Source of the DNA: an uncultured Clostridia bacterium
Lineage (GTDB): Bacteria > Bacillota > Clostridia > Oscillospirales > CAG-272
Direction of reading: 5' to 3'
Assembly (NCBI GenBank): GCA_944392615.1
Contig: CALXXF010000008.1
Coordinates: 1-64,000, forward strand
DNA: 64,000 nt
Numbering within the stretch: position 1 is the stretch's first letter; each line of letters begins with the position of its first letter. Shown here one piece after another: positions 24,521 through 55,572 of the stretch. The position numbers and the translations under genes are program-made. The notes under the pieces were generated by a model. That model worked only from the letters and a program-made list of their open reading frames with translations. It did not search any database and had not been told where the DNA came from.

Positions 24521-27250
24521 TTACTGTTCGACCTGTACCATCTCATATGCTTCAAGTATGTCGTTTTCCTTGATATCGTTAAATTTATCAAGTCCTATAC
24601 CGCATTCATACCCGGCAGTTACCTCTCTTACATCATCCTTGAAGCGGCGGAGTGACGAAATTTTATCTTCAAACACCACAACACCGTCTCTCAAAACCCT
24701 GATAAGAGAGTTCCTTGTGACTTTTCCATCCTGAATATACGATCCTGCTATAGTTCCGACATTAGGTACTCTTATAGTCTGCCGCACCTGGGCGTGACCG
24801 AGAAGCTGTTCCTTGTAAACCGGGGCAAGCATACCCTTCATTGCGGCGGTTATCTCGTCTATACAATCGTATATGACTCTGTAGGTCCTTATATCGACCT
24901 TCAGAAGCTCAGCCCTGTCTATGGCATTCTTGTCTGGACGGACATTGAAGCCAACTATTATGGCATTTGACGCTGAAGCGAAAGTGACATCTCCTTCGGT
25001 AATTCCTCCGGCAGCACAGTGGATGACATTCACCTTTACCTCATCGTTGGATATCTTGACAAGAGAGCTCTTTACAGCCTCTGCCGAACCGACGACATCG
25101 GCCTTGACTATTATGTTGAGTTCTTTTACTCCGTCGCGTATCTGGGCAAACAAATCATCAAGACTTACCTTTGAGCCGGCGCTAAGCATTTCCTGACGCG
25201 ATTTTGCCCTGCGCTTTTCAGCAAGCTCTCTTGCCATTCTCTCATCTTCAACGGCGTTGAACTCATCTCCCGATGTTGGAACCTCTGAAAGACCTATTAT
25301 TTCTACAGGTACCGACGGACCTGCAGATTTCATTGTCTTTCCGTTTTCATCGTTCATGGCTCTTACATGCCCGACAGCAGTACCAGCTATAACAGTGTCT
25401 CCTGTATGGAGAGTACCGTTTTGAACAAGAACGGTTGCGACCGGTCCCTTGCCCTTGTCAAGGCGGGCTTCTATCACTATTCCTTTTGCCTTACGGTTAG
25501 GGTTTGCTTTAAGCTGTTTCATTTCCGCAATAATGAGCACATTTTCGAGAAGGTCCTCTATTCCGCGCCCGGTAAGTGCGGAAACCGGGACGCATACCGT
25601 ATCTCCTCCCCATTCTTCAGGAACAAGCTCGTATTTTGTAAGCTCCTGCTTTATTGCTTCAGGGTTGGCGCCCGGCTTATCCATCTTATTGATAGCCACA
25701 ACAACGTCCACACCCGCCGCCTTTGCATGGTTTATGGCTTCTACTGTCTGTGGCATTATTCCGTCATCAGCGGCAACCACAAGTATCGCTATGTCGGTAG
25801 CCATAGCGCCCCTTGCTCGCATTGCTGTAAACGCCTCATGACCAGGAGTATCAAGGAATGTTATATCCTTGTTGTTTATCTTCACCCTGTATGCGCCTAT
25901 ATGCTGGGTTATTCCCCCAGCCTCTCCGGCGGTTACGCTGGTGTGCCTTATCTTGTCGAGGAGTGAGGTCTTTCCATGGTCAACGTGTCCCATTACAACG
26001 ACAACAGGAGCTCTTTCAACAAGCTGTTCTTCTTTGTCTTCCTCGTTGTCGAACAGCTTATCCTCTATAGTCACCACAACCTCTTTTGTCACTATTGCGC
26101 CAAGCTCTGTTCCTATATACTCAGCTGTATCGAAATCTATTGTCTGATTGACATTAGCCATAACACCAAGCATCATAAGACGCTTGATCACTTCAGCCGC
26201 AGTGACTTTAAGCTTCGTAGCCAAAGCAGAAACCGTGATCTCATCTGGCACAGATATAGAAAGCTGCTGTTTTACAGGAGGCTGCTTACCGTGAGCGTTC
26301 TTCTTTGAAAGACTCTTGTAACCGCCCTTGTATCCCTGAACATCATTTTTTGAGCCCTTTGAACCAGCCTGACCCTGCTGTTTTCCCGCCTGCTTTTTGA
26401 GTTTTTGCTTCTGATTGTCATAGTTTATGTCAGAAACATATTTGTCAAGCTTTTCATCATATTTGTCAAGATTTACCGACGAAGTCCTTGTATCTACAAC
26501 CCTGACTCCGCTCTTGTATCCGAATACGTTCTGGGCAGCTTCAGATACTACAACCGGCTCATGATCGCGCGAATCGTTCTTTTTCTGGAACTGCTGGGTA
26601 GCTGGTAAAGTCTGCCTGTTATCCGGCTTTCTTTTTTCTGTTTCTTTCTTTTGTGGGCCCTTATTGAAGTTTATCGGGTTAGCAAATCGATCCTTGTGTT
26701 CTGAAGCTTGCTTTTGTGCTTTTGCCTTTGCAGCCTTTTCGGCGGCCTTTTCAGCGGCGGCCTTTTCAGCGGCGGCCTTTTCGGCGGCGGCCTTTTCAGC
26801 GGCGGCCTTTTCGGCGGCGGCCTTTTCGGCGGCGGCCTTTTCGGCGGCGGCCTTTTCAGCGGCAGCCTTTTCGGCGGCAGCCTTTTCGGCGGCGGCCTTT
26901 TCAGCGGCAGCCTTTTCAGCGGCGGCCTTTTCGGCGGCAGCCTTTTCAGCGGCAGCCTTTTCAGCGGCAGCCTTTTCAGCGGCAGCCTTTTCGGCTTCTT
27001 CTCTGCGCTTTATTTTTTCTTCGGTTTCTACATGGATAAACGTTTCAAAACGAAGATATGAGTTGATGTCGGTAAGCTGGTTGTTCTTTGTAAGCGTGTC
27101 GAGTATATAGCTGAATTCATCTTCAGTGAGCTGAGCCATATGGTTAGCCTTGGCAGGAAAACCACCGTTTGCAAGAAGTTCAATGATTTCCTTGCTCTTC
27201 ATATTAAGTTCTTTGGCAAGTGAGTTGATTCTGTAATTAAAATCTGCCAT
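24521..27250 (-). CDS. infB: Translation initiation factor IF-2
   Basis: A 909-residue GTPase that places fMet-tRNA on the ribosome. The N-terminal IF2-N domain ([17 protein letters not shown]) is followed by a long Ala/Glu/Lys repeat (about residues 86-170), a linker, a second IF2-N domain and the G domain. G motifs are GHVDHGKTS (G1), DTPGHEA (G3) and NKMD (G4); the C-terminal domains C1 and C2 are complete. It starts inside the last codons of ylxQ (14-base overlap) with GGAGG upstream. Downstream, where rbfA or truB would be expected in many relatives, there is a terminator and then ygiQ. Confidence 0.98.
26746..26990 (-). repeat. 15-bp tandem repeat array inside infB (AEKAA repeats)
   Basis: About sixteen to seventeen nearly identical 15-bp units encode AEKAA in frame. 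Units differ mainly at two synonymous positions (GCC/GCT). The array keeps the reading frame, because each unit is a multiple of three. Confidence 0.9.
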
Positions 27251-38063: not shown

Positions 38064-38138
38064 TATCACACCTCCGGAAAATCATTAAACAAGTGGCAGG
38101 CCAGATTGGCATAACAGTGTACGCGGTTCAAAATCATT

Positions 38139-38172
38139 CTGAGCCATTTATTTTTCTGAGCCATTTATTTTT
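38139..38172. repeat. Two tandem 17-bp copies before ppdK
   Basis: An exact tandem duplication of a 17-base unit (38139-38155 and 38156-38172). The remaining 306-base gap holds a TATAAT at 38318-38323 with a weak -35, the likely ppdK promoter. Confidence 0.75.
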
Positions 38173-53114: not shown

Positions 53115-54596
53115 TCAGGAGACAGCCTCAAGCTTTGCGTTGTCGGCATCAAGTATCTGCTGTGCCCATATAGCGAGCATTGCATACATCTGTGACGCCG
53201 ATGCCTGGTCCATTACATTCTTGTTGTTGTCGTAATTGCTGTCTTCCCAGCCTGAAAGATAGTTGCGCGGAAGAAATCCGTCTCTGTTATAATTCTCATA
53301 AGCATAGTCGAGCGACTTCTGAAAGCTCTCTATGTAAAGGAGTGCATCCTCAGGTTCAAATTCATAGAGATCAAGGAATCCCTGAAGAAGTACTAAGTTG
53401 AACCATGTAGTCTGCGAGTTTATCGGATACATATACTCTCCGGGAACGGTCTTTCTGTCACAGAAATTCGAGTAGGCGGCGATGGACGAGCGCTTGGCAT
53501 CGGTGAGGTACTTGCTTTCTCCGGTCACTCTGTAAAGCGCCACTCCGCCCGATATCATTGCTCCTGTATTATAGGTATACGCCGTATGGTCTATATCGCT
53601 TGACATTGAGGTAGTCACATACGTATTGTCCACAAGAGACCTTTCAGTACCAACGAGATCGCCGTATGTGCCGTTTATGTTCATAAGATGCTCTCTGACA
53701 AAATCATATATCTTAATTGCCCAGTCGAGATAATACTGCGCGTCGTCGTCCCCTCTGTCCTTCTTTATTTCGTATATTTCAACAAGCGGCATGACTATCG
53801 GCGCGTTGGAGCAGGTATGCTTTGTTGAATAATGTGAGCCCCACGGTATGCCGCCGTATTCCTCGCCGTTTTCGTCAAGAGTATAGTCCCATCCGTCTAT
53901 ACATACCTTGGCAAGCCTTATCGCTTCGTTAAGATACTCTTCTTCCCCGGTTGCCTTGTATCTGTATACCGTCTCGCGTATTATCCACATCTGGTCATCG
54001 TAAACGGACATCTCATTTGCAACATTTGCAGTACCCTTGTTAAAGCTCCTGTTGACACCGTAAAGTGTCTGGGTCAGCGTTCCTTTATACGTGATCAGGT
54101 CAGCGGTGCCCTCGTAGTACTCAAAACCCTCATAGACATGCTGGCTGAGCTCCTCGTACGCTGCCCTGTCTTCCTCTGTCTGCGCTATTTCAGCAAGACG
54201 AGATATCATAGCGTAATACGCAGTATAATGCCACACGGATGACGTACCAGATGTGCTGCCGGTGTTTATGTTATAGCTTTCAGAAAGCATATATCCTCTT
54301 GCGCGTCTTCCGTATTTGTCAATAGTGGCATCACCTATTTCAAGAGCTCTGTCTATATTGTTTTTGACTATTTCCTGAAGCTCTTCCCTGCGCTCGCTGC
54401 TGAGAGTATCAAGAGCGGAGGTTGAAACGGGCTCGGTGTCAGATGCTGTAGAAGATGTCGCTTGATTACTTGAGTCATTGTCACTGCCGGCGGTGGTAGT
54501 GGTATCAGTATCACCAACGCAGGCGCACAGAGAGACAATGCACATACATAACGCAAACAGAAGCATAACAAGGCGTTTTTTCATTTCAATTACCAT
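53115..54596 (-). CDS. GH76-type lipoprotein glycosidase (alpha-mannanase-like)
   Basis: A 493-residue lipoprotein: signal segment, lipobox LCAC, then an Asp/Thr/Ser linker and an (alpha/alpha)6-barrel. The GH76 catalytic Asp-Asp is in SVYDDQMWIIRE near the barrel centre, with YNTGAMISGGVALYRVTG and MYPINSQTTW as further family-like stretches. GH76 enzymes hydrolyse alpha-1,6-mannan of fungal or plant origin outside the membrane. ATG 54596 was chosen for AGGAAAGG; an in-frame ATG at 54584 is the alternative. Its leader contains four 21-bp repeats, and promoter and terminator are both clear. Polysaccharide specificity is not proven. Confidence 0.8.
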   Translation of the reverse strand: MVIEMKKRLVMLLFALCMCIVSLCACVGDTDTTTTAGSDNDSSNQATSSTASDTEPVSTSALDTLSSERREELQEIVKNNIDRALEIGDATIDKYGRRARGYMLSESYNINTGSTSGTSSVWHYTAYYAMISRLAEIAQTEEDRAAYEELSQHVYEGFEYYEGTADLITYKGTLTQTLYGVNRSFNKGTANVANEMSVYDDQMWIIRETVYRYKATGEEEYLNEAIRLAKVCIDGWDYTLDENGEEYGGIPWGSHYSTKHTCSNAPIVMPLVEIYEIKKDRGDDDAQYYLDWAIKIYDFVREHLMNINGTYGDLVGTERSLVDNTYVTTSMSSDIDHTAYTYNTGAMISGGVALYRVTGESKYLTDAKRSSIAAYSNFCDRKTVPGEYMYPINSQTTWFNLVLLQGFLDLYEFEPEDALLYIESFQKSLDYAYENYNRDGFLPRNYLSGWEDSNYDNNKNVMDQASASQMYAMLAIWAQQILDADNAKLEAVS

Positions 54597-54630
54597 TTCC
54601 TTTCCTGCGAAAACCAGCAAATTGTCATTG

Positions 54631-54714
54631 ACCAGTTTTCAGTATGCCGGTACCAGTCTTCAGTGTGCCGATACAAACCTTCGGAATGTCGGCACAAATT
54701 TTCAGTATGCCGGT
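54631..54714. repeat. Four 21-bp tandem repeats in the GH76 leader
   Basis: Units at 54631, 54652, 54673 and 54694 repeat with an exact 21-bp period; the consensus core is TTCAGTATGCCGGT, the third being the most diverged. They lie between the promoter (54848-54876) and the GH76 start (54596), and so are transcribed. On the minus strand they also encode a heptad (RHTENxx-like) in one frame, but no convincing start site for such a peptide was found. Confidence 0.88.
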
Positions 54715-54847
54715 TCGTCGTTCCAGACGCGGACATCGATATGTGGGCAATCATGTAAATCCGATGATCCCGTTCAGAAAACAGCCCTTTACCTACAAGC
54801 CTGAAGCAGACGGCCGTCATCTGGTAAATATTCAACTGCTTTAGTGC

Positions 54848-54876
54848 ATTATACCATATTTATTTAACAAAATCAA
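54848..54876 (-). promoter_or_regulatory. Promoter of the GH76 gene
   Basis: On the minus strand, TTGATT (54871-54876), 17-bp spacer, TATAAT (54848-54853). It predicts a long leader of about 245 bases. Confidence 0.85.
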
Positions 54877-54921
54877 CATTTGATTCAACATTTTTTATAA
54901 TTGCACCTTAATAAAAAAACA

Positions 54922-54952
54922 AAAAGGAACGAGACTTTACCTCGTTCCTTTT
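54922..54952 (-). terminator. Terminator of the spoIIIA operon
   Basis: A perfect 12-bp stem (54922-54933 with 54941-54952) followed on the minus strand by a T-rich run. Confidence 0.88.
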
Positions 54953-54960
54953 ATGTATCG

Positions 54961-55572
54961 TCACGCCTTTTCTATAATGGTTATGTTGGTAGGAGCTATA
55001 TCGGCCTGTTTAAGTACTATTTCCTGAATCTGCGCGCGCTGGTTTGCAGCAAGCCCATCGCTTTTCACCACTATATCTATGTGTCCGTCGTTAATGACAG
55101 CCACACATTCCTCAAATCCCTTTGCCTTTATGAGAGTTTCTATATTTGCCTCTGCCTGTTTGTTCTGTGCAAGCACTGTTATCTCATTGAAAGCAGCTTC
55201 CTTTGCCTCTTCTGTTGCATTGGCGCTTGTTGTCACAGCAAGCAGAGTGTTATAAGCGCTGTCATATGCGTTTTCTCTGTTGAGCTGTGCCATGGCAAAA
55301 TAGCTTTCCTCATCATCGGGATTTCCAACGTCTGTGCCCGGTTCTTCTGTCACAACGCCTGCATTAGTACTTGGATTGTATACGTTATCTTTACCTGAAT
55401 TTGCGAAAAGCACCCAGTTGAGATAAATTGCACCGCCTATGAGTGCAACCGCACCAAGAATAATAAGGTTCCTCTTTGCCTTGGTTTTGAATGTGTCTGT
55501 CAATTTACCGAATCCTCCTTTGTATTTTTCTATACCGCCGGCTTTGCTTTCCGATTTTATTACTTTTACCAT
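54961..55572 (-). CDS. spoIIIAH: Stage III sporulation protein AH
   Basis: A 203-residue mother-cell protein with one transmembrane helix (about residues 36-57, LIILGAVALIGGAIYLNWV) and a C-terminal ring-building (YscJ/FliF-like) domain in the intermembrane space. With SpoIIQ of the forespore it forms the channel between the two cells. The C-terminal half (AKGFEECVAVINDGHIDIVVKSDGL region) is the family core. Last gene of the operon, with GGAGGT and a terminator after it. Confidence 0.92.
   Translation of the reverse strand: MVKVIKSESKAGGIEKYKGGFGKLTDTFKTKAKRNLIILGAVALIGGAIYLNWVLFANSGKDNVYNPSTNAGVVTEEPGTDVGNPDDEESYFAMAQLNRENAYDSAYNTLLAVTTSANATEEAKEAAFNEITVLAQNKQAEANIETLIKAKGFEECVAVINDGHIDIVVKSDGLAANQRAQIQEIVLKQADIAPTNITIIEKA

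Follow-up and report, generated by a model that had tools for sequence, protein, structure and literature searches.

The window analysed here (the whole stretch of 64,000 nucleotides) carries a short tandem repeat array between two genes, and the order of features on the minus strand is spoIIIAH, a terminator-like hairpin, a promoter-like site, a leader containing the array, a GH76-like gene and rlmN. The features referred to below are:

54961 to 55572, minus strand: spoIIIAH, the upstream neighbour (PF12685), in an order shared with three congeners as judged by eye
54922 to 54952, minus strand: intrinsic-terminator-like hairpin directly after spoIIIAH
54848 to 54876, minus strand: sigma-A-type promoter-like site, TTGATT-N17-TATAAT with TG before the −10, called by consensus match; similar sites at three congener loci
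54585 to 54847, minus strand: inferred 263-nt leader of the GH76-like gene, bounded by the −10 and the ATG at 54584, with a predicted transcription start
54631 to 54714, minus strand: tandem array of four diverged 21-bp units, head to tail, defined by repeat finding, self-match and unit alignment
54699 to 54719, 54678 to 54698, 54657 to 54677 and 54636 to 54656, minus strand: the units of the array set in one phase
54590 to 54835, minus strand: 81-codon leader open reading frame that reads the units as heptapeptides; probably not a gene, no Pfam match
53115 to 54584, minus strand: GH76-like gene (Pfam PF03663), ATG at 54584, alternative in-frame ATG at 54596

The GH76-like protein matches PF03663 with an E value of 2.3e-24 (start 54596 used) and has PDB entries 4mu9 and 4c1s as its best solved-structure matches; from its N-terminus we take it to be a probable lipoprotein. 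The ATG at 54584 is the likelier start because the matching starts of the congeners, read by eye, also follow a GAAAGGA-type site. This affects the position of the array, which a preliminary description of this DNA had placed 35–118 bases before the start codon: that distance fits the ATG at 54596, but from the likelier ATG at 54584 the array lies 47–130 bases away. The same description had assigned the repeats to the leader of a GH76 gene downstream of a clear promoter, and both assignments hold up, with the array inside the 263-nt inferred leader, the PF03663 match downstream of it and, upstream, a promoter-like TTGATT-17-TATAAT with TG, retained in three congeners. Promoter-like sites number three in 501 bases, against a shuffle mean of 1.4. 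Judged from the sequence, the array is presumably transcribed along with the leader.

The array is real, with an exact period, worn copies and a self-match well above chance. Tandem Repeats Finder reports a period of 21, 3.7 copies, 69% matches and no indels at 54638–54714. At lag 21 the array matches itself in 45 of 63 columns (counted from 54630), whereas 20 first-order Markov shuffles of the full 64 kb, scored at all lags 8–60, peaked at 32–36 of 63. Nine of 21 columns are invariant across the four units, and the six pairs of units are identical at 11, 14, 17, 14, 13 and 16 of 21 positions. The four exact-period 21-bp repeats first described are therefore present where they were placed and free of indels, their copies diverged. 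CRISPR arrays are regular repetitions with unique spacers between the repeats; the array here has the regular repetition in common with them but runs head to tail and, because its units abut, contains no spacers, as had been stated. Minisatellites are head-to-tail units of roughly 10–100 bp that exceed chance, and head-to-tail 21-bp units that do so by both Tandem Repeats Finder and the shuffles fit that definition. The location, between spoIIIAH and the GH76-like gene, is noncoding, and the open reading frame that overlaps it has weak coding evidence. Two other repeats in the window were recorded. The gene for translation initiation factor IF-2 (24521–27250, minus strand) has a 15-bp array at 26740–26992 (16.9 copies, 94% matches), whose translation is a repeated AAAEK pentapeptide in the N-terminal region of the protein, and a perfect 17-bp unit is present in 2.1 copies at 38137–38172.

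An orthologue of the GH76-like gene was found in three of six congeners, G005, G004 and G006, with protein identities of 60, 55 and 53%, and since identity is only 53–60% these three are not very close relatives; G001, G002 and G003 (73, 56 and 64% complete) gave weaker GH76 matches only. At all three orthologous loci SpoIIIAH, recognised by eye, is encoded upstream and is followed by a hairpin, also read by eye, and then by a promoter-like site. By eye, rlmN adjoins the GH76 gene in G005 and G006 and a different gene takes that place in G004. The leaders, counted from just after the −10 up to the ATG, are 141 nt (G005), 52 nt (G004) and 52 nt (G006), compared with 263 nt here, and no repeats or periodicity were found in any of the three. 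The intergenic regions of these congeners are no more periodic than their shuffles (best scores 21, 23 and 20 of 42 columns; shuffle means 22.0, 23.2 and 21.4), whereas that of the window reaches 30 of 42 against a maximum of 26 of 42 in 200 shuffles. On this sequence comparison, the promoter has been retained while the length and sequence of the leader have changed freely. A GH76 search of genome contigs returned 14 loci, of which L003 and L004 were taken as the G005:C21 and G004:C8 loci; the remaining 12 have best-segment identities of 32–39%. Several species of the genus retain a GH76-like gene next to spoIIIAH (window 53115–55572; L022, L023, L024), a neighbourhood that may hint at a sporulation-tied role or may simply be stable gene order.

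Searches of the array's own genome for further copies of the unit gave little. BLAST with the unit returned the array locus only, and a 42-position profile, with E values up to 10 admitted, found the array alone. A 19-base pattern with up to three mismatches recovered two units of the array and two single places, each with three mismatches and both non-periodic; about 1.3 chance matches are expected for such a pattern, and the reversed-pattern control gave none. BLAST did not find the unit in any of the six congeners (56–88% complete), so that among the seven genomes of the genus it was found in its own only. Among 58 other relatives, searched with the profile under stricter filters than the own genome, 57 were negative and one (G298) gave a partial match at E 0.06 over 24 of 42 positions. 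A 31-base pattern was negative in 293 of 294 other genomes of the family, drawn from a larger group, and the one match (in G077) falls inside an open reading frame and lacks a 21-bp array, and was taken as chance. Within the sensitivity of these BLAST, pattern and profile searches, which can overlook arrays that share this origin but have diverged strongly, the unit is shared with no other locus. The outcome is largely the one that the preliminary description had named as counting against its reading, a unit found once and lost in close relatives, with no second array in the genome and none in the three orthologous leaders.

A mobile or phage origin of the leader was considered and set aside: the 376-bp intergenic region is unmatched in plasmids and phages at E 0.01, and the 28-residue repeat peptide has no phage match at E 1. 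For the leader open reading frame a viral-contig locus (L053) matched over 19 residues at 47%, without a 21-bp array, and was likewise taken as chance. Among the titles and abstract openings listed by a literature search, none concerned this array or an excess of such arrays in this group.

We then compared the density of tandem arrays, of whatever sequence, in this genome and in its relatives. Arrays were called where at least 42 of 63 columns self-matched at a lag of 10–60; genes were approximated as the longest non-overlapping open reading frames of at least 100 codons, a rough call, and arrays with under half their length inside one of these genes were scored as intergenic. The own-genome sample covers 41% of the genome (812,220 bases, 130,869 of them noncoding) and was taken in contig order, non-randomly; nine relatives (G004, G005, G006, G009, G010, G013, G027, G032 and G302) supplied 1,330,883 bases, 157,300 noncoding. 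We observed 25 intergenic arrays, the present one among them, and 21 coding arrays in the own sample, compared with one intergenic and 14 coding arrays in the nine relatives (p 3.9e-8 for the intergenic counts). The difference holds at other thresholds, with 32 versus 3 intergenic arrays at 40 of 63 columns, 22 versus 0 at 45, 16 versus 0 at 50 and 10 versus 0 at 55 (p from 1.2e-8 to 3.7e-4), and shuffled intergenic DNA of the own genome yields no array at threshold 42. The assemblies of some relatives are fragmented and may have lost repeats; G013, G027 and G302, which were sampled from long contigs, give none in 580,000 bases at 42; at 40, G302 gives one.

The 25 intergenic arrays are mutually unrelated, BLAST at E 0.01 giving self matches only (56 lines) within the sample. 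Their lags run from 12 to 59 bp, the long ones perhaps multiples of shorter units, and 12 of the 25 are multiples of three (p 0.14), so triplet periods were dismissed. Thirteen lie between co-directional genes, eight between convergent and four between divergent genes, and seven touch a roughly called gene or reach into it by up to 36 bases. We see no sign of a preference for leaders, because eight of 25 are convergent when convergent gaps hold 21% of the bases in gaps of at least 85 (p 0.22). Other arrays in the genome, all with unrelated units, include L054 2962–3048, L069 11356–11436 and L070 1479–1562; the 23-bp array at L054 stops some 20 bases short of a start codon, much like the array in the GH76 leader. 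Plain loss of mismatch repair is not an obvious cause of the excess, since MutS and MutL domains are present in seven of seven genomes of the genus.

The preliminary description had proposed three functions for the repeats, as an operator, as an RNA element or as a translated leader, and none of them gained support. A regulatory role is possible, and all that speaks for it is the position of the array and its period. An operator would consist of sites for a DNA-binding regulator aligned on one face of the helix, controlling the GH76-like gene as a roadblock, and the exact 21-bp spacing and the nine invariant columns per unit are in its favour. However, the units contain no consistent palindrome by eye, the array lies approximately 127–210 nt below the inferred transcription start, well inside the inferred transcript, and 21 bp is not a preferred period in this genome (2 of the 25 sampled intergenic arrays, this one included). 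With no second array found in the genome, the site appears neither before other genes of the genome nor before the three orthologues, so that such an operator would have to be private to the GH76-like gene; of the three proposals we consider it the least probable. Scarcely more probable is an RNA element, in which units would pair within the leader and thereby control stability, termination or ribosome access. The claimed partial pairing of GTGCCGA with TCGGCAC does occur in the predicted sense-strand fold, as GUGCCGA/UCGGCAC together with nested pairings, but that fold is unremarkable in stability: 16 of 200 shuffles are as stable for the 260-nt leader (z −1.58), 21 of 200 for the array (z −1.23) and 15 of 200 for the array with flanks, 131 nt (z −1.58). 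On the antisense strand the array folds more stably (z −2.71; 5 of 200). In Rfam no family reaches threshold, the two matches, both over the terminator, scoring far below their cut-offs. As a structured cis-regulatory RNA the array thus has neither a known-family match nor, by the shuffle z-scores, an unusually stable fold.

The third proposal, a translated leader peptide, was drawn from a minus-strand frame that had been said to encode a heptapeptide repeat, and that frame exists: it reads NRHTENL/CRHSEGL/YRHTEDW/YRHTENW within the 81-codon open reading frame, which is open through all four units and ends at 54590, six bases before the ATG at 54584. Because it ends beside the GH76 start, translational coupling to the GH76-like gene is possible. 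RH(T/S)E is kept between units, with synonymous changes at Arg and His, and the heptapeptide frame is the best of six by BLOSUM score, with an uncorrected P of 0.015 (2000 column shuffles per frame); correction for six frames brings this to about 0.09, and amino-acid identity alone gives 0.12. A 21-bp period by itself preserves every frame, however, and the in-frame starts lack a clear Shine-Dalgarno sequence by eye. The open reading frame has no Pfam match, its repeat peptide is unmatched in phages, and in the open reading frame lists of the three congener loci, inspected by eye, no RHTE-type frame of at least 60 codons is present. We regard translation of the leader as improbable too, if marginally less so than the other two proposals.

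We consider it quite probable that the array is a lineage-private intergenic minisatellite, one of many unrelated arrays in this genome, without a demonstrated or conserved role in regulation. It would have arisen when 21 bp of the GH76 leader were duplicated in tandem, perhaps by slipped-strand replication or unequal recombination; the copies would later have diverged by point mutation, leaving a decaying array, and the genome would have accumulated many such intergenic arrays of unrelated sequence. That the array is without function is what we infer. A young regulatory gain in this species is possible, being compatible with absence from orthologues of 53–60% identity, and selection on spacing or frame could explain why units diverged to 11–17 of 21 keep an exact period without indels.

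Parallels are found in three published systems. Bacterial intergenic minisatellites, or VNTR loci, are likewise short tandem units in intergenic DNA (PMC2884548), but that study set a cut-off of 90% identity, and the present copies are more diverged than this. In Beggiatoaceae, likewise in a genome rich in such repeats, one heptamer, TAACTGA, forms 169 sets of intergenic direct repeats placed, as here, before start codons (PMC4679880); by contrast, the arrays sampled here are unrelated to one another and many lie away from start codons. The variable promoter repeat of nadA resembles the present array as a tandem repeat 5′ of a gene for a probably exported protein, but its unit is TAAA and unit number alters promoter activity, whereas here diverged 21-bp units lie downstream of the promoter (PMC3899988).

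The array itself is ordinary. Its setting, with promoter and gene order conserved around a leader that varies freely, shows that regular periodicity in a leader is not necessarily a sign of regulation. More tentatively, as a reading less likely than not, an unusually active process in this genome may create intergenic tandem duplications of about 12–59 bp, giving rise to private and mutually unrelated minisatellites, some of them falling within leaders, where they could adjust the expression of genes such as this GH76. For the question of what governs how often bacteria duplicate short stretches in tandem, a genus in which one species shows this excess of unrelated intergenic arrays and has its mismatch-repair genes is a natural comparison.
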